A stretch of DNA of 64,000 nucleotides from Ancylobacter moscoviensis. Its GTDB lineage: Bacteria; Pseudomonadota; Alphaproteobacteria; Rhizobiales; Xanthobacteraceae. Of this stretch, positions 493 through 29,243 are shown in pieces; position 1 is the stretch's first letter, and each line of letters begins with the position of its first letter. The notes under the pieces are model-generated. The model saw only the letters and a list, made by a program, of their open reading frames with translations. It made no database searches and was not told the origin of the DNA. The DNA lies in the NCBI RefSeq assembly GCF_007559435.1, contig NZ_VMBP01000003.1, positions 372,001 through 436,000 of the forward strand, in the 5' to 3' direction. The position numbers were made by a program, and so were the translations under genes.

Positions 493-912
493 TCAATCGG
501 TTTCTGTCACCGCGCGAAACCGCAGCAGCGCGCGGTAGCTGCGTCCTCCCGGCTCGCGCCGGATCTCGGCGCTGGAAAAGCGCAGATTCACCAGCCGGTG
601 GCCGGGCAGCTCGAGCGCCGCGTCGTGCAGCGCCTGCTGCACCAGATGGGCGAGCGCGTGCGCCTCCCCGTGCCCGCCCTGGCGCGACCAGACGGCGAGC
701 GTCATCCGGTGCTCCTCCCCGCTCTCGGTGGCGGTGGACCAGTCGGTCACCTGCGCCTCGCCGAGCGTCACATAGGGGAAGTCCGGCGCGCCCGGCGGCA
801 CGTCATGCACCCGCCCGCCGCCCAGCGCGGCGGTCAGCGCCGCATCTCCCGCCAGCGCCGCATGGATCGCCCGGCGCAGCGCCACCGCCGCGCCCGCCAT
901 TGCCCCGCTCAT
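493..912 (-). CDS. GTA protein g8, DUF3168 family
   Basis: 139 aa, starting at the ATG of an ATGA overlap with the preceding mini-ORF. The protein matches the DUF3168 family of small phage/GTA head-tail joining or tail terminator proteins: an N-terminal helical part (ALRRAIHAALAGDAALTAAL), then V-x-P-G-A-P-D-F-P-Y-V and a beta-rich C-terminus ending in RALLRFRAVTE. In RcGTA the equivalent is gp8, part of the head-tail connection. Gene order and translational coupling support the call. Family recognition is by sequence pattern and context, not by a database search. Confidence 0.85.
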   Translation of the reverse strand: MSGAMAGAAVALRRAIHAALAGDAALTAALGGGRVHDVPPGAPDFPYVTLGEAQVTDWSTATESGEEHRMTLAVWSRQGGHGEAHALAHLVQQALHDAALELPGHRLVNLRFSSAEIRREPGGRSYRALLRFRAVTETD

Positions 913-1013
913 CGGCGCCCCCTCCCGTTCGGCCGCGCGGCCCGCCGCGCCGCCAGACCGGCCAGCCTGTCGCGCAGCGCTTCCAGTCCCCTCAGGCGGA
1001 TCGCGAACCTCAC
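909..1013 (-). CDS. 34-aa coupled mini-ORF between g7 and g8 (possible HK97 gp10-like remnant)
   Basis: A GTG at 1013 overlaps the g7 stop (GTGA) and the stop of this ORF overlaps the g8 start (ATGA), so it is stitched between the two genes by two 4-bp overlaps. The product starts MRFAIRLRGLEALRDRLAGL and ends in an Arg-rich tail. In many related prophages an HK97 gp10-family protein of over 100 aa sits exactly here and begins with a similar L-x-G-L-x-x-L-R pattern, so this may be a truncated remnant kept for translational coupling. That is inference; the product could also be a genuine micropeptide. Confidence 0.5.
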   Translation of the reverse strand: MRFAIRLRGLEALRDRLAGLAARRAARPNGRGRR

Positions 1014-1354
1014 GGCGTCTCCTCCCGGCAGTCGCAGACGAGCCGCCGCCCCCGCCCCTCGGGATCGCTCACCGCCTCCACCAGGAAGCGCCGCGCCCCC
1101 AGCCGCAGCCGGTCGCCCGGCTGCACCGTCGCCGGCGCCCGCAGGCTCACCCGGTGGCTCAGCACCGCGCCGGGCCGGTCGGCGATCTCCGCCGGAGCGG
1201 CGCCCGTTTCGATCGCGCCCCACAGCGCGTCCACGGCGAGGAAGGCGCGCGTCACCCCGCCCATGCCGTCCGCCGTCTCCACCGGCGTCTCGTGCACCAG
1301 CCGGTGCCGCAGCGCCCCCGTGCCCGTGCCCATGCCCCCGCCAGGCGCGCTCAT
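1010..1354 (-). CDS. GTA head-tail adaptor protein (g7)
   Basis: 114 aa, start ATG at 1354 inside an ATGA overlap with g6. The pattern L-R-H-R-L-V-H-E near the N-terminus, followed by a W-G-A-I-E segment, H-R-V-S-L-R, G-D-R-L-R-L-G-A-R-R-F and a Cys-x-Cys near the C-terminus, is that of phage head-tail joining/adaptor proteins (HK97 gp7/SPP1 gp16-like). In RcGTA this protein (gp7) forms the stopper between portal ring and tail. Position between g6 and g8 supports it. Confidence 0.85.
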   Translation of the reverse strand: MSAPGGGMGTGTGALRHRLVHETPVETADGMGGVTRAFLAVDALWGAIETGAAPAEIADRPGAVLSHRVSLRAPATVQPGDRLRLGARRFLVEAVSDPEGRGRRLVCDCREETP

Positions 1355-3707: not shown

Positions 3708-4982
3708 TCAGGCCGCGAACTTCAGCAGCTTGATGGCGTCGAAGTCCTGCACGCCGCCGCCCACGCGCTTCGTCGTGTAGAACAGCACATAGGGCTTGGC
3801 CGAATAGGGATCGCGCAGCACCCTCACCCCGGCCCGGTCCACCACCAGATAGCCGCGCCGGAAGTCGCCGAAGGCGATGGAAAGGCTGCCCGCGCCGATC
3901 TCCGGCACGTCCTCCGCCTCATGGACGGGGAAGCCGAGCAGGCTCGGCTGCGCCCCCGGCGCGGTCGGCGGCGCCCACAGATACTGGCCGTTCTCGTCCT
4001 TCAGCTTGCGCACCGCCCCTTGCGTGCGCCGACTCATCACGAAGCTGCCGTTCTGGCGGTAGCCGGCCTTCACCGCATAGACGAGGTCGACCAGCGGATC
4101 GGCCGGGCCGGCGGCGGGGAAGTCGCCGGCCGCCCCGGTGGCGATGAAGCCGAGCTTGCCCCATTCCCAGGCGTTCTCCGCCACCGTGTCATAGGCGAGG
4201 AAGCCCTTCGGCCGGGCGATCCCGTCGCCGGTCACGAAGGCGGTGCCCTCCTGGCTCGCGAAGGCCGCCTCCACCTCGATGGCGAGCCATTCGTCGATGT
4301 TCACCGCCGAATCGTCGAGCAGCGTCTGCGTCGCCGCCGGCATGGCGTAGAGTTCCATGGCCGGGAAGGCGATCTCGTCCAGCACCGGGCTCGCGGTCTG
4401 CGCCCGCGCCGCCGTTTCCGCCACCCAGCCGACCGCCGGGCCGGAGGTCATGAACGGCTTCTTGTAGGTGCCGGCGGAGATGGTGCGCACATCGGCGATA
4501 GCGCGGATCGGCGAGAGCGCGGTCAGGCGCTTGCCGATCTCGCGCTCGGTCTCGTGCGGCACGGTATAGCCGCCGTCCGCGCCGATGCCGGCGGAGAGCG
4601 CCTTGGCCTCCAGCCGCTTGAGCCCGGCCGCCTCGCCGGTGCGCACATAGGCGTCGAACGCCGCCTTGTGCTCGCGGGCGGCCAGATCGCTCACAAAGCC
4701 GGTCGCGAGATCGCCGCCGCCCAGCGCCGGGCGGCGGGCCTTGAGCGTCAGCTCGTCGATCAGCGCCTTCTGCGTGTCGAGGGCGGCGTTGATGCGCTCC
4801 ACCTTGTCGGCGGTCACCGCGTCGACGCCGCGCCGCTCCAGCTCGCCGAGCCGCTGGTCGTTGGCGTCCTTGAACGCCTCGAAGGCGCCCATGAACTCCT
4901 CGAACGCCGCCGCGACCTCCGGGCCGGCGACGGACTTCACTTCAGGGGCGGAATGGCTGAAATCCATGTTGCTCATGTCCAT
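3708..4982 (-). CDS. GTA major capsid protein, HK97 family (g5)
   Basis: 424 aa. An N-terminal helical scaffold-like domain (about residues 20-100, F-E-E-F-M-G-A-F-E-A-F-K-D-A-N-D) is followed by the HK97 capsid core. GGYTVPHETEREI marks the start of the mature protein, with GKRLTALSPIRAIA and, at the C-terminus, V-R-V-L-R-D-P-Y and V-L-F-Y-T-T-K-R-V-G-G-G-V. These are features of RcGTA gp5, which is cleaved by the g4 protease during head assembly. Three close in-frame ATGs exist (4982, 4976, 4967) with no strong SD; the first is given. Downstream in transcription, the expected g6 is displaced by the plus-strand cassette. Confidence 0.93.
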   Translation of the reverse strand: MDMSNMDFSHSAPEVKSVAGPEVAAAFEEFMGAFEAFKDANDQRLGELERRGVDAVTADKVERINAALDTQKALIDELTLKARRPALGGGDLATGFVSDLAAREHKAAFDAYVRTGEAAGLKRLEAKALSAGIGADGGYTVPHETEREIGKRLTALSPIRAIADVRTISAGTYKKPFMTSGPAVGWVAETAARAQTASPVLDEIAFPAMELYAMPAATQTLLDDSAVNIDEWLAIEVEAAFASQEGTAFVTGDGIARPKGFLAYDTVAENAWEWGKLGFIATGAAGDFPAAGPADPLVDLVYAVKAGYRQNGSFVMSRRTQGAVRKLKDENGQYLWAPPTAPGAQPSLLGFPVHEAEDVPEIGAGSLSIAFGDFRRGYLVVDRAGVRVLRDPYSAKPYVLFYTTKRVGGGVQDFDAIKLLKFAA

Positions 4983-5098: not shown

Positions 5099-5662
5099 CT
5101 AGGCCATCGCCGGCCGCAGCCCGGGAAGGGCGCGCAGGCGCCGGGCGCCGCGGCGGATGGCAGCGGCGAGCGGGGCGTGCTTCACGCCGGCGATGCGGGC
5201 GTCCGGCTGCATGGGAAAGGTCACCACCGACACCTCCCACAGATCGATGCGCGAGAGCCGCCGCACCCGCGTGCGCGGGTCGGTGCGCCCCTCCACCGCG
5301 CGGAAGCCGATGGAAAGCCCGTCGATCGCCCCCGCCCGCATCAGCGCCAGCACGTCGCGGGCGCGGGCGACGTCCAGCGTCAGCCGGCCGCGCACATGCA
5401 GCCCCACGCCGTCCTCGCGCAGCGACAGCCAGGTGCCGATCGGCTCGGCCGGATCATGCTGGAACAGCATGCGCACCCCCGGCGCGCCGCGCTCGGCGAG
5501 CGAGCGGGAGAAGGCGCCGGGCAGGATCAGGTCGCGGCCGAGATCGACCCGGCCGAACAGCGCCGCATAGCCCTCGAAACTGCCGTCCGGCTCGATCCGC
5601 GCCAGCGCGCCGGGCTGCGCCTTGGTCTGGATCGGCGCAGCGGGATGGGTCCACCCGTTCAT
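5099..5662 (-). CDS. GTA prohead protease, HK97 gp4-like, peptidase S78 (g4)
   Basis: 187 aa, ATG at 5662 overlapping the stop of the preceding small ORF (ATGA). Recognised by F-E-G-Y-A-A-L-F-G at about residues 29-37, His69 in MLFQHDP, Ser117 in DGLSIGF and Glu143 in LWEVSVVTFP, which match the His/Ser/Glu catalytic set of HK97-type prohead proteases. It would process the capsid protein encoded next in the cluster. Length is typical for the family. Confidence 0.92.
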   Translation of the reverse strand: MNGWTHPAAPIQTKAQPGALARIEPDGSFEGYAALFGRVDLGRDLILPGAFSRSLAERGAPGVRMLFQHDPAEPIGTWLSLREDGVGLHVRGRLTLDVARARDVLALMRAGAIDGLSIGFRAVEGRTDPRTRVRRLSRIDLWEVSVVTFPMQPDARIAGVKHAPLAAAIRRGARRLRALPGLRPAMA

Positions 5663-6151: not shown

Positions 6152-7321
6152 CTAGTCCCGCGTCCCGTAGCCGACCGCCTGGCGCTTCTCCTCGTCGGTG
6201 AGGAAGTCCGCCTCGCTCACCCGGCGCCACAGCGCCTCGCGCTCGAAGCTCAGCGCCGCGATGGCGTCGAGGTCCGGCTCCAGCGCCAGCCGCGCCTCGC
6301 CGAAGGCGGGGGCCAGCCAGCCGGCCAGCTCCTGCCCCAGCCGGCGCGCCAGCGGCAGCACGGTCTGGCGCCAGAGCACCCGGCTCGCCTCGGCGTAATT
6401 GGCATAGGTGGCGTCGCCGGGAATGCCGATCAGCATCGGCGGCACGCCGAAGGCGAGCGCGATCTCCCGCGCCGCCGCGTTGCGCGCCTCGAGGAAATCC
6501 ATGTCCTTGGGCGAGAGCGAGAGCGGGCGCCAGTCCAGCCCGCCCTCCAGCAGCAGCGGCCGCCCGGCATTGGCGCTGCCGGAGAAATTCTGCTCCAGCT
6601 CCTCCTTCAGCCGGTCGAACTGCTCGTCGGAGAGGTTGCCCGCCCCGCCATAGACCAGCGCTCCGGAAGGCCGCGCCGCGTTGTCGATCAGCGCCTTGTT
6701 CCAGGCGCCGGCGGCGTTGTGGAGGTCGAGCGCCACCTGCGCCGCCTCCAGCGGCGGGGCGCCGTAATGGTCGTCGAGCGGGTGGAACAGCGCGATGTGC
6801 AGGATCGGCGCAACGGGCGCCCCACCCCCACCTTCCGGCGCGAAGCGCACGCTGCGCCCGCCCGCCGTGTATTCATAGGCCTGCGCCCACCCGTCCGCGC
6901 CGGGCACCACCCGCATGCGGTCGGGGCGCAGCACGTGCAGCTCGCGCAGCTCGCCGCCCAGCGCCACCGCCTCGACATAGGCGTTGCCGGCGATCATCAG
7001 ATGCGCCGCCAGCGCCTCCATCAGCCCGGTGCCGGAAAGGCGCGGGTTGGGGCGCGCCAGCAGTTCGGCGAGCGGATGCGCCTCGCTCTCCCGTCCGCCC
7101 TCCATCAGGGTGAAGCGCACCTCGCCCGCCGCCTGCGCGACGAGCCGCACGCAGCGATGCGCCACGGCGTTGCGCAGATAGCCCTCGCGCGCCAGCCCGG
7201 CATAGTCGCGCGGCGTCCATTGCGGCCGGTGTCCGGCGAGCAGCGCCACCAGCGCCTGGGTGCGCGAGGCCTTGGCCTCCGGCGGCGCCGCCGGCCGGCG
7301 CAGGAAAGGAAAGAGCTTCAT
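6152..7321 (-). CDS. GTA portal protein, HK97 family (g3)
   Basis: 389 aa from ATG 7321 with SD ggag. Portal features include N-A-V-A-H-R-C-V-R-L-V-A-Q-A (about 51-64), HPLAELLARPNP (about 83-94), a G-N-A-Y-V-E segment, L-R-P-D-R-M-R-V-V-P, then ALDLHNAAGAWNKALIDNAA and FGVPPMLIGIPGDATYANYA, which are strong HK97-type portal motifs. The protein forms the ring through which DNA is packaged by the terminase encoded just upstream in the cluster. A readable frame extends far upstream of the ATG, but SD and family length support this start. Confidence 0.93.
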   Translation of the reverse strand: MKLFPFLRRPAAPPEAKASRTQALVALLAGHRPQWTPRDYAGLAREGYLRNAVAHRCVRLVAQAAGEVRFTLMEGGRESEAHPLAELLARPNPRLSGTGLMEALAAHLMIAGNAYVEAVALGGELRELHVLRPDRMRVVPGADGWAQAYEYTAGGRSVRFAPEGGGGAPVAPILHIALFHPLDDHYGAPPLEAAQVALDLHNAAGAWNKALIDNAARPSGALVYGGAGNLSDEQFDRLKEELEQNFSGSANAGRPLLLEGGLDWRPLSLSPKDMDFLEARNAAAREIALAFGVPPMLIGIPGDATYANYAEASRVLWRQTVLPLARRLGQELAGWLAPAFGEARLALEPDLDAIAALSFEREALWRRVSEADFLTDEEKRQAVGYGTRD

Positions 7322-7665: not shown

Positions 7666-9039
7666 CTAAACCCGCCGCACCCGCGGCGCGGCCTCCCGCG
7701 GCCCCAGCGCCAGCGCCGTCACCGCCCAGACCAGCGCGTCCAGCCGGTCGGGCGAGCGCCCGTTCGACAGGCCCTCGGGGCCGAAATCGCACATCTCGTC
7801 CTCCAGCGCCGGAAAGGCGCCGGCATGGCGCACCCGGCCCTGCTCGTAGAGCGCGGCCACCGGCTCGGCGCGCAGCCATTTGCCGCGCGTCGCCCGCACC
7901 TCGCTCACCGGCACGGCGGGGTCGATCCCGGCGAGGATGGTCTTCACCATCTCCCCGCCCTGGTTCACCTCCACCACCACCCGGTCGGCCTCCAGCCGGT
8001 GGAACAGCCCCACCGCCCGGCCGCCCCAGCCGATGGGCGTCAGCCCCTGCGCACTCTCGTCGCCGAGCACGTGCACCATGCCGTCGCGGTCGATCCCCGC
8101 CGCCACGATCCCGCAGGCGTCGGCGTGCTTGCGCGAGGAGGCCGGCGGGTCCACCGCCACCACCACACGCTCCATTTGGCGGACGAGCTCCGGCGCCGCG
8201 CCTTCCCGCGCCGCCTCGATCGCCGCGCGGTTCCACAGCGCGTCCGGCCGGTCCTCGATCAGCTCGCCGTCCAGCTCCTGCCGGCCAAGCCGCGTGCCGG
8301 CATAGCGGCCGACCACCGTCTCCAGAAAGGTCGGCGCCAGATGCGCCGCGTTGGACGCCGTGCCCATCCGCGTCACCGCCGTGCGCGGATCGGCGATCAG
8401 CGCGCGGATCAGCGGGTTCGGGCGCGGCGTCGTGGTCGCCATCTGGCGCGGGCGGCGGCCCAGCCGCAGCCCGAATTGCAGCATGTCGAACGCCGCCTGC
8501 GCGTAGCGCCACTTGGCCAGCTCGTCGCACCAGGCGGCATGGAATTGCGGCCCGCGCAGGCTTTCCGGGTCGTCCGCCGAAAAGCCCTGCGCCACCGCCC
8601 CGTTCGGCCATTCGAGGCGCCGGCGCGTCGGTTCCCAGCTCGGCCGCTCGTGGCGCGGATGCACGCTGAGCAGGCCGGAGACGCCCTCCACCATCACCTC
8701 GCGCAGGTCGGCGAGGCTTTCCGCCACCAGCGCGATGCGCCCGGCCGGCGGCCCGGCCCGGCCGAACACCAGCGCGCGCACCCATTCGGCGCCGGCGCGG
8801 GTCTTGCCGGCCCCGCGCCCGCCCAGCACCAGCCAGGTCAGCCAGTCGCCGCCGCCCTGCGCCGCGCGCGGCGGCTGCTGCGCCGGCCGGCCGACCAGCG
8901 GCCAGTGGTGCAGCAGCCATTCCGCCGTTCCCGGCGGCAGCGCGGCGATGGCCTCAGGGAGCCTCCCCTGCCGCCAGCACACGTTCAAGAGTTTCGCCAA
9001 GCTCGCGTCGGAAGGCGTCGGCGTCACGGCTGGCGTCAT
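7666..9039 (-). CDS. GTA large terminase subunit (g2)
   Basis: 457 aa from the ATG at 9039 (later TTG/GTG starts near 8988/8982 are possible; the overlap with g1 would then shrink). ATPase domain: Walker A GGRGAGKT (73-80), Walker B FHAAWCDE (166-173) and coupling motif ATTTPRPN (201-208). The C-terminal nuclease domain has acidic residues in VVVAVDPP, VVEVNQGGEMV and DRLDALVWA. This is the packaging motor; in RcGTA it cuts and packages random host DNA. It lies between g1 and portal as expected. Confidence 0.93.
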   Translation of the reverse strand: MTPAVTPTPSDASLAKLLNVCWRQGRLPEAIAALPPGTAEWLLHHWPLVGRPAQQPPRAAQGGGDWLTWLVLGGRGAGKTRAGAEWVRALVFGRAGPPAGRIALVAESLADLREVMVEGVSGLLSVHPRHERPSWEPTRRRLEWPNGAVAQGFSADDPESLRGPQFHAAWCDELAKWRYAQAAFDMLQFGLRLGRRPRQMATTTPRPNPLIRALIADPRTAVTRMGTASNAAHLAPTFLETVVGRYAGTRLGRQELDGELIEDRPDALWNRAAIEAAREGAAPELVRQMERVVVAVDPPASSRKHADACGIVAAGIDRDGMVHVLGDESAQGLTPIGWGGRAVGLFHRLEADRVVVEVNQGGEMVKTILAGIDPAVPVSEVRATRGKWLRAEPVAALYEQGRVRHAGAFPALEDEMCDFGPEGLSNGRSPDRLDALVWAVTALALGPREAAPRVRRV

Positions 9040-9652
9040 TCTCGTCCCCGTCCGGCCCGTTGGTCTCCAGCGCCGACAATTCGCGCAGCGAGCGCACGAG
9101 CACCGCCAGCGTGCGCGCCGCGCGCTCGGTCTCGGCCACGCCGTCGGTCACGCGCTCGCAGCCCGCGCGGGCGATCAGCCGCTCGATGGCGGCGATCTCC
9201 GCCTCGATCCGCCGCACCAGCCGGGCGATCAGCTCGCCGCGCGGCAGCTTGTCCCGCCCCGCGACCGGCGTCCCCGCCGTCTCTCCGCCCGAAGCCTCGC
9301 CACCGGAAACCTTGCCGCCCGAAACCTCGCCGCCCAAAGCCTCCGGCACGCCGGCGGCCAACGCGGAAAAATCCGGCGCGGCGACGCCCGGCTGAACCGA
9401 AGCCGCCTCCGTCAAAGGCCCCGCCGGCACCGGCGTCTGCCCGGCGACGGCCGACGGCACCCGGCCGTCGAGAAGGCGCGAGCGCCATCCCTTGTGCCGG
9501 GCATGGCGATAGAGTGTCGTCTTGTGAATGCCGAGCAGCACCGCGATGCTCTCGACCGGCACGTTGGTCTCCTCATAGAGCTGCCGCGCCTCGATGAGCG
9601 CCGCCGGCGAGAGGTTCCGTCCACTCGGAGCGATGCGACTACCTGCCGACAT
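8954..9652 (-). CDS. GTA small terminase-like DNA-binding protein (g1)
   Basis: 232 aa from ATG 9652, chosen for its SD (gggagg) and because the family-like helix-turn-helix begins soon after: R-Q-L-Y-E-E-T-N-V-P-V-E-S-I-A-V-L-L-G and HKTTLYRHARHKGWRSR (about residues 23-59). A low-complexity middle holds repeats of SGGEV/SGGKV/SGGEA type, and the C-terminal half is helical (LIARLVRRIEAEIAAIERLI). In RcGTA gp1 is a divergent small terminase; position directly before g2 supports the same role. A longer frame reaches 9787 but would translate the terminator hairpin. Confidence 0.8.
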   Translation of the reverse strand: MSAGSRIAPSGRNLSPAALIEARQLYEETNVPVESIAVLLGIHKTTLYRHARHKGWRSRLLDGRVPSAVAGQTPVPAGPLTEAASVQPGVAAPDFSALAAGVPEALGGEVSGGKVSGGEASGGETAGTPVAGRDKLPRGELIARLVRRIEAEIAAIERLIARAGCERVTDGVAETERAARTLAVLVRSLRELSALETNGPDGDENDASRDADAFRRELGETLERVLAAGEAP

Positions 9653-9676
9653 GCCACCTCCCCGTATGAGGCTGGA

Positions 9677-9702
9677 AACAAAAAGCCGGCCCGAAGGCCG
9701 GC
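9677..9702 (-). terminator. Intrinsic terminator in the GTA leader, upstream of g1
   Basis: On the minus strand GCCGGCC-TTCG-GGCCGGC is followed at once by TTTTTGTTT: a 7-bp all-GC stem with a stable UUCG loop and U-tract. It sits about 25 bases upstream of the g1 start and about 85-110 bases downstream of the promoter at 9794-9822. No minus-strand gene lies just upstream for it to end, so it would terminate GTA transcripts unless bypassed. Confidence 0.85.
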
Positions 9703-9793
9703 CCCGGCGCGCCCGTCGGGCAGCGCCGCCAATCCCTATGCCCCGCACCGGAAGGACGCCCGGCCTCTCGACGCATTTGTGGAGCATGACGAA

Positions 9794-9822
9794 AACCTAC
9801 CCCGGCAGCGTCACGCTGTCAA
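9794..9822 (-). promoter_or_regulatory. Putative GTA cluster promoter
   Basis: On the minus strand TTGACA (9822-9817) and TAGGTT (9799-9794) are separated by 17 bases. The -35 is perfect; the -10 matches 3-4 of 6. Predicted start is near 9786, giving a leader of about 135 nt to g1 that contains the terminator at 9677. Confidence 0.65.
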
Positions 9823-9832
9823 GGACTATTTT

Positions 9833-9843
9833 CCTATCATAGG
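9833..9843. promoter_or_regulatory. Palindrome upstream of the GTA promoter (possible activator site)
   Basis: CCTATcATAGG, an 11-bp palindrome in an AT-rich stretch 10 bp upstream of the -35 hexamer. The position suits an activator of a GTA promoter (GafA/GafY-like) or an IHF-type architecture, but the binding protein is not identifiable from sequence. Confidence 0.45.
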
Positions 9844-9935
9844 ATTTATTGGCCAAAGCCGGAGCTGCAAGCGCGATATCCCGCCAAAGCCGCCCGTGCG
9901 GACGCCCTTCACAAGCAACCTTTCCGCCTCTCGCG

Positions 9936-10221: not shown

Positions 10222-10743
10222 ATGCCCCTGCCCCGCCTGATCCCCGCGCTGCCGGTCCTTCTCGCGCTGCTCGCCGTCCCGGCGGCGGCGCGCGATCCGG
10301 TGATGCTCGCCGGGCCGGCGCCGGGACAGGAGGTCGCCCTCCCGCTCGACGCGCTGCGCGCCCTGCCGGCCGAGACGCGCGAAGTGTCCTTCCTCTCCTC
10401 CAAGGGCGAGGAAAGGGCGCGCTACACCGGCACGCGGCTGTGGGACCTGCTCGCCGGCCACGGCTTCGTCGATCCGGCGAACCATCCGGCGCTGCTGCGC
10501 ACCCTCGTCGTCGTCACCGCCGGCGACGGCTACACGCTCGTGCTGGCGGCCGCCGACCTCGCGCCGGAGCTGGGCGACACGCCCGTACTCCTCGCCTATG
10601 CGCGCGAGGGCGAGGCCCTCGCCGCCGATCGCCTTCCGCGCCTCATCGTGCCGGGCGACCGGCGCGGGGCGCGCAACGTCTTCGACATCGCGCGGATTTC
10701 CGTCCGCGTGCTCGATCCCATCCCACAGGAGAAAACGCCATGA
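10222..10743 (+). CDS. Periplasmic protein of the molybdopterin-dependent oxidoreductase fold
   Basis: 173 aa. Residues 1-23 form a signal peptide (LIPALPVLLALLAVPAAAR). The rest resembles the sulfite oxidase/YedY-like molybdopterin domain: a G-T-R-L-W-D-L-L-A-G-H-G segment (about 71-82), T-A-G-D-G-Y, an L-A-Y-A-R-E-G-E stretch and R-L-I-V-P-G-D-R-R-G-A-R-N-V (about 139-152). No cysteine ligand for Mo is visible, so it may be a non-catalytic or small single-domain member. Its stop overlaps the Mop start (ATGA), implying an operon and a molybdenum-related role. Confidence 0.7.
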   Translation: MPLPRLIPALPVLLALLAVPAAARDPVMLAGPAPGQEVALPLDALRALPAETREVSFLSSKGEERARYTGTRLWDLLAGHGFVDPANHPALLRTLVVVTAGDGYTLVLAAADLAPELGDTPVLLAYAREGEALAADRLPRLIVPGDRRGARNVFDIARISVRVLDPIPQEKTP

Positions 10744-27757: not shown

Positions 27758-28192
27758 ATGACATCAAAGATCGACAGCATCATCGAGGACTTCGAGCTTC
27801 TCGATAATTGGGACGACCGCTACCGCTACCTGATCGAGCTCGGCCGTACCCTGCCGCCCTTTCCGGAGGAGCGACGCACCGAGCAGTCGAAGGTGCAGGG
27901 TTGCGCCAGCCAGGTCTGGCTGGTGAGCGAGGCCCGGCCGGACAACGATGGCCCGCACCTCGTCTTCCTCGGCGACTCCGACGCCCACATCGTGCGTGGC
28001 CTCGTCGCCATCCTTCTGGCGCTTTATTCCGGCCGTCCGGCCCATGACATCGCCGCCACCGATCCGACCTCGGTGTTCGAGCGCATCGGCCTCAAGGAAC
28101 ACCTGACGCCCCAGCGTTCCAACGGCCTGCGCTCCATGGTCGAGCGCATCCGCGCCGAGGCGCGGCGGGTCCTCGCCGACGCGGTTCACTGA
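27758..28192 (+). CDS. sufE: SufE family sulfur-transfer protein
   Basis: 144 aa. D-F-E-L-L-D-N-W-D-D-R-Y-R-Y-L-I-E-L-G-R near the start and Cys49 in S-K-V-Q-G-C-A-S-Q-V-W-L, the persulfide acceptor loop. SufE takes sulfane sulfur from the cysteine desulfurase SufS and passes it to the SufBCD scaffold. Isolated here from suf genes, common in Rhizobiales. The 3' end overlaps the convergent DUF6456 gene by 7 bp. Confidence 0.92.
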   Translation: MTSKIDSIIEDFELLDNWDDRYRYLIELGRTLPPFPEERRTEQSKVQGCASQVWLVSEARPDNDGPHLVFLGDSDAHIVRGLVAILLALYSGRPAHDIAATDPTSVFERIGLKEHLTPQRSNGLRSMVERIRAEARRVLADAVH

Positions 28193-28734
28193 GACGCATC
28201 ACCCGTCACGTCGCCCGCCCTCCAGGCGCGGCTGCGTGTTCGTTCCGGCCCCTGCGCCACTTCCGCCAGCCCGTAGTGGCGGGCCAGCCGACCCAGCGCA
28301 AGCGACAGGACGACCTTGGCGGTGCGCGCCGGCCAGCCCCTCTCCCGCTCGATCTGCTCCACCCCCTTGAGAAAGCAGCACACATCCAAGAGAAGGCCGG
28401 AGAATTCCGGTCCCGTCGCCTCCAGCGCACGTGACAGGCGCTGACGCGCCGCCAGCATCGCTTCCGACGCATTGAGACCGGGGACGAGCCCCCGCCGGCT
28501 GCCACGCGCCACCGCCTCCCAGTCGGCGCCGAGGCGCGGTGTCATTCCCGCGCGGGTAAAATCCACCCGGAGCCGCTCGCCGGCGATGAGCTGCACCGGT
28601 GAGACGAAGCTGCGTCCGTCCCGCCCGCGCCGACGCGCGAGCCAGCCGAGCGGGCTTTCCTCAAGGTCCACGGCGACGCGTGTCCGCGCACCGTCGATCT
28701 CGATCTCGACATGGTCGATCCGCGGCTCAGACAT
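28186..28734 (-). CDS. DUF6456 domain protein
   Basis: 182 aa from the ATG at 28734, which overlaps the 3' end of the DnaA-like gene by 8 bp. The conserved core is S-P-L-G-W-L-A-R-R-R-G-R-D-G, Q-L-I-A-G-E-R-L-R-V-D-F-T-R-A and T-P-R-L-G-A-D-W, the DUF6456 signature, followed by a helical C-terminal half with C-C-F-L-K-G-V-E-Q-I-E and R-S/T-A-K-V-V-L-S-L-A-L-G-R-L-A. The family is found near a DnaA domain IV-like gene in Rhizobiales; DNA binding is suspected but unproven. Confidence 0.85.
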   Translation of the reverse strand: MSEPRIDHVEIEIDGARTRVAVDLEESPLGWLARRRGRDGRSFVSPVQLIAGERLRVDFTRAGMTPRLGADWEAVARGSRRGLVPGLNASEAMLAARQRLSRALEATGPEFSGLLLDVCCFLKGVEQIERERGWPARTAKVVLSLALGRLARHYGLAEVAQGPERTRSRAWRAGDVTGDASQ

Positions 28735-29113
28735 GCGCGCCTCCCGACATAGGGGCACCCGCCAGCCCGCGCACGCTCTCTTCCAGCGCGGCCACCCAGC
28801 GGTCCCAGCCGGCAACCTCGCGACGTTCCTCGATCTTGCGGCAGGCATGGGCGACGGTGGAGCGGTGACGGCCAAAACCGGCCGCGACGCGGGTCATCGG
28901 TAGTCCAAGCCCGACATGGGCCAGATACATTCCCAGCGCCCGCGCCGAGGTGCAGCGGCTATCACGCCGGCGCGACCCGATGACGACATCGACCGGCACG
29001 CCCACCGCTTCCGCGGCATGCATCGCCGCCACAAGGCAAGGTTCTCTGCGGGGGGCGTCGGTATGGAATGGATGGGTGGAATCGGCCGTTTCGACTTCGC
29101 TGCGTGGGAGCAT
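28727..29113 (-). CDS. Stand-alone DnaA domain IV-like helix-turn-helix protein
   Basis: 128 aa from ATG 29113, SD AAGGAGG 7 bases upstream. The C-terminal two thirds resembles domain IV of DnaA: R-R-R-D-S-R-C-T-S-A-R-A-L-G-M-Y-L-A, then G-L-P-M-T-R-V-A-A-G-F-G-R-H-R-S-T-V-A-H-A-C-R-K-I-E, which mirrors the G-R-D-H-T-T-V-x-H-A DnaA-box reader. It has no ATPase domain. It could compete with DnaA for boxes or regulate transcription. Coupled to the DUF6456 gene. Confidence 0.85.
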   Translation of the reverse strand: MLPRSEVETADSTHPFHTDAPRREPCLVAAMHAAEAVGVPVDVVIGSRRRDSRCTSARALGMYLAHVGLGLPMTRVAAGFGRHRSTVAHACRKIEERREVAGWDRWVAALEESVRGLAGAPMSGGAHV

Positions 29114-29184
29114 GGGGCTGCCTCCTTGATAGGAATACAAGCCTATAATCCATGCCGCCCGCAATCAAGAACAAAAAGAGAACA

Positions 29185-29243
29185 TTGTACACAGAAGCCA
29201 CAATCAGAACTGCGCCGTTCAGAAAATAGGAAATTTATCCGCA
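29185..29243. promoter_or_regulatory. Two near-consensus DnaA boxes upstream of the DnaA-IV gene
   Basis: TTGTACACA (29185-29193) and TTATCCGCA (29235-29243) each differ from TTATNCACA at one position, on the same strand, 42 bp apart, in an AT-rich spacer directly upstream of the DnaA-like HTH gene. Chance occurrence of single near-boxes is not rare, so the pair is only suggestive. Confidence 0.4.

Follow-up and report, generated by a model that had tools for sequence, protein, structure and literature searches.

Antitermination is already known as a kind of GTA control. The promoter of the Caulobacter crescentus GTA, CcGTA, is PgtaT; it is controlled by GafY, GafZ, and IHF and is accompanied by terGTA. 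An inverted repeat between the -35 and -10 elements is required both for GafZ enrichment and for GTA production; GafZ associates with RNA polymerase and Nus factors as an antiterminator, part of the polymerase then passing terGTA, and the rrnB T1 terminator of E. coli gave a similar response. The promoter itself has a poor -35 element and needs GafY plus IHF, and with a near-consensus -35 it becomes about sixfold weaker and independent of GafYZ (excerpts of PMC11150451). To judge by its title, a 2025 paper by Korotaev et al. in eLife (cited in PMC13236601) describes control of the Bartonella BaGTA by antitermination as well.

What switches GTA production on in a cell is a topic of current research. 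We analyzed a 64,000-nucleotide stretch of the Ancylobacter moscoviensis genome (the window), in which the GTA promoter differs from that of Caulobacter by a consensus -35 element and by a terminator placed before gene 1. What is new is this variant, with a testable cis signature present in many families of the order, the Hyphomicrobiales: about 60 bases with a predicted GafZ site, a putative pause site, and a terminator. The titles, abstract openings, and passages sampled from the GTA-regulation literature mention neither a terminator in the leader of a GTA promoter nor a pause element there.

The GTA cluster, its promoter block, and its leader

An RcGTA-type head-tail gene set lies on one strand, with terL, portal, protease, capsid, head and tail completion, and tail tube genes all present, followed on the same strand by genes for Phage_TAC_11 (GTA-gp10), DUF2460, NlpC/P60, and GTA_TIM with Rcc01698_C (Table 1). 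The cluster is 18.2 kb long and continues beyond the window edge, up to the GTA_TIM/Rcc01698_C gene. Its first gene, g1, has no match in Pfam, NCBIfam, or PHROG; homologues are found in 28 of 30 genomes of the genus, that of A. moscoviensis included.

Table 1. Positions of the features discussed in the text, counted from the first base of the window
Feature	Positions	Strand	Remarks
GTA head-completion and tail-completion genes	493..1354	-	
GTA major capsid	3708..4982	-	Pfam Phage_capsid, 3e-88
GTA prohead protease	5099..5641	-	phrog_80, 7e-55; start codon not settled
GTA portal	6152..7300	-	Pfam Phage_portal, 1e-89; start codon not settled
GTA large terminase	7666..9039	-	Pfam Terminase_6N/6C
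g1	8954..9652	-	ATG at 9652 after GGAGGT; N terminus HTH-like by eye
Leader intrinsic terminator, GGGGCCGGCC-TTCG-GGCCGGCTTTTTGTTT	9676..9705	-	ahead of g1
Conserved initially transcribed sequence, CATGCTCCACAAATGCGTC	9770..9788	-	
-10-like hexamer CATGCT, -1 to +5	9783..9788	-	candidate sigma-dependent pause element
-10 element, TAGGTT	9794..9799	-	TAGCTT or TAGGTT in the genus, once TAGATT
Palindrome CAGCGT-G-ACGCTG, CAGCGTGACGCTG	9806..9818	-	candidate GafZ-binding element (ZBE/QBE-like)
-35 element, TTGACA	9817..9822	-	identical in 28/28 genus loci
Element TAGGAAAATAGTCC, directly 5' of the -35	9823..9836	-	candidate GafY (or repressor) site
gafZ-like gene (DUF6456)	28186..28734	-	PF20057, 2e-47; only match in the genome
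gafY-like gene, DnaA domain IV-like HTH	28727..29113	-	Pfam Bac_DnaA_C, 1e-10; one of two matches in the genome

The -35 and -10 elements are separated by 17 bases and read toward g1, with the letters and coordinates that an earlier note on this DNA had given for the promoter. TAGGTT agrees with TATAAT at only three of six positions, and a program scan of 20 kb listed no promoter at TTGACA/TAGGTT. From the sequence alone, the start is predicted at about 9787 on the minus strand, and the numbering of the -10-like hexamer from -1 to +5 rests on this prediction. The final two bases of the -35 element belong to the palindrome as well. Throughout the genus (28 of 28 loci) the block reads, with small variations, TAGGAAAATAGTCC-TTGACA-GCGTGACGCTGGCCGGG-TAG(C/G)TT-tnnntCATGCTCCACAnnTGCGTCG, and the palindrome arms CAGCG/CGCTG are kept in 26 of these loci. 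The GGAA of the upstream element is conserved at 100/100/100/96% over its four positions in the 28 genus loci and at 84/100/94/96% in 70 loci of the order; this TAGGA element is a putative site of GafY action.

The two regulator genes lie in the same window as the GTA promoter (28,186-29,113), the ATG of gafZ overlapping the end of gafY, and have mucR and sufE as neighbors, the same neighbors that are described for gafA genes of Hyphomicrobiales (excerpts of PMC9638019). We take DUF6456 to be the GafA/GafZ domain because it is given as such in Table 1 of PMC9765227 and in PMC9638019, because GafZ is reported to be homologous to the C-terminal part of GafA (PMC9632790; excerpts of all three papers), and because Caulobacter was the sole DUF6456 match among 14 control genomes. 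The earlier note had suggested a search of the genome for a Gaf-like gene; one DUF6456 gene was found, directly behind a DnaA-C-like gene. The AlphaFold model of GafZ is weak (mean pLDDT of 55.7). Upstream of gafY, at 29130-29145 and 29227-29240 of the window, the genus-conserved sequences TAGG-N8-CCTA and GGATAAATTTCCTA somewhat resemble the TAGGAAAATAGTCC element, and the motifs at gafY and at the GTA promoter are a candidate shared site for GafY or RogA.

Between the promoter and g1 stands a G+C hairpin of 7 to 10 pairs with a TTCG loop and a T run; it ends at 9676, 23 bases 5' of g1, and lies ~80 to 110 nt past the predicted start. The plus-strand side of the hairpin has no T run. The earlier note had the letters and coordinates of its GCCGGCC-TTCG-GGCCGGC stem right. 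The nearest likely upstream gene, an ORF at 10222-10743, is divergent, on the plus strand. It is by its conservation that the layout exceeds chance; this single locus by itself would not, a terminator of this kind being unremarkable (8 terminator-like sites in 20 kb versus 7.2 in shuffles). A terminator was called at most 170 nt from the start in 23 of the 28 leaders of the genus; 20 rounds of shuffling yielded a mean of 1.6 and a maximum of 4, and the same scan gave 0/28 on the reverse strand and 0/28 upstream of the promoter. The leader of locus L027 has a long T-run hairpin of different sequence that the scan missed, the hairpins of L012 and L026 are followed by poor tails, and the scan shows no hairpin in L007 or L011.

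Two genomes of the genus, G006 and G018, have no leader hairpin; they have gafZ and a long terL, and gafY is absent, dnaA being the sole DnaA-C match in each, whereas the other 26 of 28 genomes have a gafY match beside gafZ. The direction fits a loss of part of GafYZ together with the obstacle. Because G006 and G018 look like sister species, they are counted as one event.

Occurrence of the block and of gafYZ in other genomes

The block was searched for with a sequence model made from the 28 genus blocks. Six block-bearing genomes of the genus each gave one site above noise (best E values of 7e-24 to 1.5e-18, the next at least 0.03); such a lone site fits the single target reported for GafZ in Caulobacter (excerpts of PMC11150451). 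Of the 30 genomes of the genus, 28 have DUF6456, and the two from which it is absent (G021 and G022) have no g1 either and give nothing above noise with the block model. Each of these two has two extra DnaA-C matches, in frames of 241 to 254 amino acids.

Across the order, 126 of 297 genomes match the block model and 125 of these 126 have DUF6456; among the 219 genomes with terL, the block is present in 121, all of them with DUF6456, and in none of the nine that have terL without DUF6456, although these counts ignore kinship and relatives are not independent. A further 89 genomes have terL and DUF6456 without a model match, so the block is either not universal or has drifted beyond the model. 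We compared the places of 102 block sites from 96 genomes with those of terL, leaving out many extra rows of the Phreatobacter type: 73 lie ahead of terL on the same strand, at 295-2900 nt (median, 627), 11 do not, and 18 have no terL place for comparison. In this sample of the order the block marks GTA promoters, and so predicts the places at which GafZ should bind in those genomes.

Removal of two Ancylobacter genomes from the 73 terL-linked loci leaves 71 loci of the order outside the genus. The palindrome arms CAGCG/CGCTG are present in 35 of these. Both arms are altered in five, to CACCG/CGGTG in four (two families) and to GAGCG/CGCTC in one, and a single arm is altered to CGCTC in nine and to CGGTG in eight, the other 14 being scattered. 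By eye, 41 aligned GafZ proteins (that of G285 in the wrong frame) revealed no changes tracking the palindrome arms beyond kinship. In the start region, A+1 is found in 70/70 loci, T+5 in 63/70, C-1 in 57/70, and T+2 in 56/70; conservation here is biased upward, since the model was built on genus loci with the start region included. These 70 loci omit L283, which is out of register and is kept in the arm counts.

With terminators counted by distance from the start, not by position relative to the first start codon, 18 of the 71 leaders have one, in ten other families (shuffles, 2.2; maximum, 6), compared with 0/71 on the reverse strand and 2/71 in a stretch 1 kb further down. They are mostly unlike between families, and because the same scan finds none in the other 53, the leader hairpin is not universal. 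What the order keeps as its conserved core is thus the promoter block, not the hairpin.

A pattern of 21 fixed block bases, expected by chance about 0.1 times in the 84,980 genomes searched (2 x 257 Gb / 4^21), gave 52 matches in 51 stretches. The genera named in the titles of these stretches are ones that we take to belong to the Hyphomicrobiales; the one title that names no such genus, isolate PHREA1, corresponds to G262, a genome of the same order. Phreatobacter-type genomes account for 21 of the 51; of the other 30, 28 have same-strand GTA genes behind the block, and one (L132) is cut off soon after it. L113, from Hansschlegelia zhihuaiae, has a perfect block at 1113-1141(-) and no g1, terL, or portal match in the next 1.1 kb.

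In genomes of the Phreatobacter type, the GTA promoter block is scattered as 67-bp copies with sharp boundaries, up to about 20 per genome (loci L100, L102, L105, L107, L112, L115, L116, L123-L127, L129, L131, L134, L137, and L140-L144; L145-L164); at E values up to 0.5, G262 has 22 matches and G298 has 19. Two of the 21 copies in the named set precede terL; others face uvrA or different genes, and several are seemingly antisense. Either an expansion of the GafZ regulon or an element that has dispersed could account for such copies. Four genomes of family code f23, genus g70 (G104, G139, G170, and G243), have six to nine weaker model matches each (best E values of 1e-7 to 3e-6), possibly a second expansion of the block. 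In contig G051:C13, three same-strand blocks lie 6 to 7 kb apart, at 347471, 354749, and 361078, the first just ahead of terL.

Phage relatives of the promoter were sought in a phage record collection, and no phage source was found. The only two matches, L329 (MW091529.1) and L330 (MW462191.1), are filed in GenBank as 'Bacteriophage sp.'; because both hold GTA clusters, and MW462191.1 also a sufE-gafZ-gafY-regulator group, they look like misfiled bacterial DNA. GafZ itself is matched weakly in 21 Rhodobacter and 4 Roseobacter phage records (phrog_31864; OP009271.1 and others). The 19 Rhodobacter matches listed have 34-38% identity over 41-51% of the GafZ query, with E values of 3e-4 to 3e-3, and are mostly annotated as HTH proteins; these phage HTH proteins are possible relatives of the GafZ regulator.

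A proposed antitermination switch weighed against other readings

We consider it probable that this leader supplies the cis half of a switch that controls the GTA cluster by antitermination of the Q/AlpA type. The argument is drawn from the anatomy of the leader and its conservation, from the strand-specific terminators, and from the co-occurrence with gafZ, together with the published work on Caulobacter GafZ. Judged from the letters, all three cis parts used in Q/AlpA-type antitermination have counterparts here: the palindrome as a candidate binding element, the -10-like start hexamer as a candidate pause element, and a downstream terminator. RNA polymerase would start at about 9787 from a sigma-70-type promoter, and without GafZ most transcripts would stop at the hairpin as RNAs of roughly 105-112 nt, which would keep the cluster off. 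Once gafYZ is expressed, GafZ would occupy the palindrome between the -35 and -10 elements while the polymerase is held at the -10-like sequence (-1 to +5); it would then load onto the polymerase and, with Nus factors, carry it past the leader terminator to transcribe g1 and the ~18-kb cluster.

The earlier note had proposed a two-step antitermination switch on the Caulobacter pattern. This idea gains support from the gafYZ pair, the palindrome, the 125 of 126 block genomes with DUF6456, and the response of Caulobacter GafZ at rrnB T1, an intrinsic terminator; we infer antitermination itself, as we do GafZ binding, the pause, the start site, and early termination in Ancylobacter. The note needs amending in two respects: in Caulobacter the terminator follows the first gene instead of standing in the leader, and across the order it is the promoter block, not the hairpin, that is conserved.

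GafYZ could instead be activators of initiation only at this promoter; the palindrome would then simply be an operator, and the hairpin would passively insulate or tune, with part of the polymerase escaping it. GafA of RcGTA is described as acting through the omega subunit of RNA polymerase (excerpts of PMC9638019), loss of gafZ in Caulobacter lowered a reporter without terGTA about fourfold too (excerpts of PMC11150451), and 53 of 71 loci outside the genus have no leader terminator. We nevertheless hold this reading to be unlikely, because a strong hairpin just 5' of g1, which 23 of 28 species retain, should also restrain an activated promoter unless it were relieved, and because relief of termination by GafZ has been shown in Caulobacter (excerpts of PMC11150451). 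Little credence is given to the reading that the hairpin arose by chance or was inherited and plays no part in GTA control: the number of terminator-like sites per 20 kb is near expectation, as that reading would have it, but strand-specific terminators in 23 of the 28 leaders of the genus and in 18 of the 71 outside it, versus 1.6 and 2.2 expected, argue against it.

A promoter followed by a terminator also resembles an sRNA gene, and the product might be the short terminated RNA itself, a small RNA of ~110 nt from a constitutive promoter, with g1 served by read-through. This seems very improbable: the stretch from about +20 to the hairpin lacks conservation, the whole leader folds no better than shuffles (z of -0.51), and the leader of A. 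moscoviensis (L054) has no Rfam match up to an E value of 1. Three other loci gave five weak Rfam matches, all below the gathering score and none over the block. Promoter, leader, and terminator form the usual layout of an attenuator too, and yet attenuation by a riboswitch or leader peptide is hardly credible, given the absence of a conserved aptamer-like stretch, the same lack of an Rfam match in the A. moscoviensis leader, and the replacement of the recurrent ATG at +1 by ATA in two species (L016 and L020). A riboswitch or sRNA family and a leader peptide were rejected as candidates on these grounds.

The antitermination switch is thus the reading that we prefer, and we extend it tentatively, as a possibility somewhat short of probable, to GTA promoters across much of the Hyphomicrobiales: these may be poised lambda-PR'-like units with a promoter GafZ site, a sigma-dependent pause element (-1 to +5), and a leader terminator gained more than once. 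If the proposed switch is real, commitment to GTA production and lysis would be a matter of elongation control by GafZ, the consensus -35 in Ancylobacter would have moved control from initiation to elongation, and GafZ would add a further unrelated protein family to the Q/AlpA loading route. Should loading of GafZ take place at a sigma pause, unrelated proteins would have converged on a terminator-proof polymerase in phages, in a lysis cassette, and in domesticated prophages.

Comparison with described systems

Ancylobacter and Caulobacter have in common a gafY-gafZ pair, an inverted repeat between the -35 and -10 elements of the first-gene promoter, an untranslated leader, and a terminator between the promoter and most of the cluster. 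The -10 elements are close (TATCTTT at Caulobacter gtaT, TAG(C/G)TTT in Ancylobacter), whereas the -35 is AATCAT in Caulobacter and consensus in Ancylobacter, the palindrome is GCGCCCG-CTGGCGC in the former and CAGCG-N3-CGCTG in the latter, and termination falls to three 150-bp repeats behind gene 1 as opposed to a single intrinsic hairpin before it (excerpts of PMC11150451). Ancylobacter also has the conserved -10-like start region; the words 'pause', 'pausing', and 'leader' are absent from PMC11150451. The poor -35 of the Caulobacter promoter, its need for GafY and IHF, and the effect of a near-consensus -35 limit how far the two promoters can be equated (excerpts of PMC11150451). Since a near-consensus -35 made the Caulobacter promoter independent of GafYZ, the Ancylobacter promoter may fire by itself, with the decision taken at the terminator.

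RcGTA of Rhodobacter capsulatus has a homologous cluster, and the GafZ-like C-terminal domain of its GafA binds a fragment containing the -35, the -10, and the start; gafA is a single fused gene there, with reported activation through RNA polymerase omega, while the split gaf genes of Hyphomicrobiales, with mucR and sufE as neighbors, match the arrangement in the Ancylobacter window (excerpts of PMC9638019). The main text of PMC9638019 contains no word beginning with 'terminat'. BaGTA, by the title already cited (in PMC13236601), is a chimeric GTA of diverse phage origin and is not there called RcGTA-like.

The lambdoid Q late promoters (PR' with tR'; excerpts of PMC6606751) and the AlpA promoter PalpB (excerpts of PMC9371919) have a binding element between the -35 and -10, a -10-like start region, and an intrinsic terminator downstream; the Ancylobacter promoter has a candidate binding element at that place, a -10-like sequence in the predicted start region, and likewise a downstream intrinsic terminator. 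They differ in what is driven, a GTA in Ancylobacter and a phage or lysis cassette in the Q/AlpA systems, and in the form of the site, an inverted repeat here as against a direct repeat for 21Q (excerpts of PMC6606751); models of GafZ are without similarity to the Q and AlpA antiterminators, as stated in excerpts of PMC11150451. If the Ancylobacter start is as predicted, positions -1 to +5 read CATGCT, compared with CACGAT at Pseudomonas PalpB, where substitution of A+1 or T+5 impaired antitermination by AlpA (excerpts of PMC9371919).
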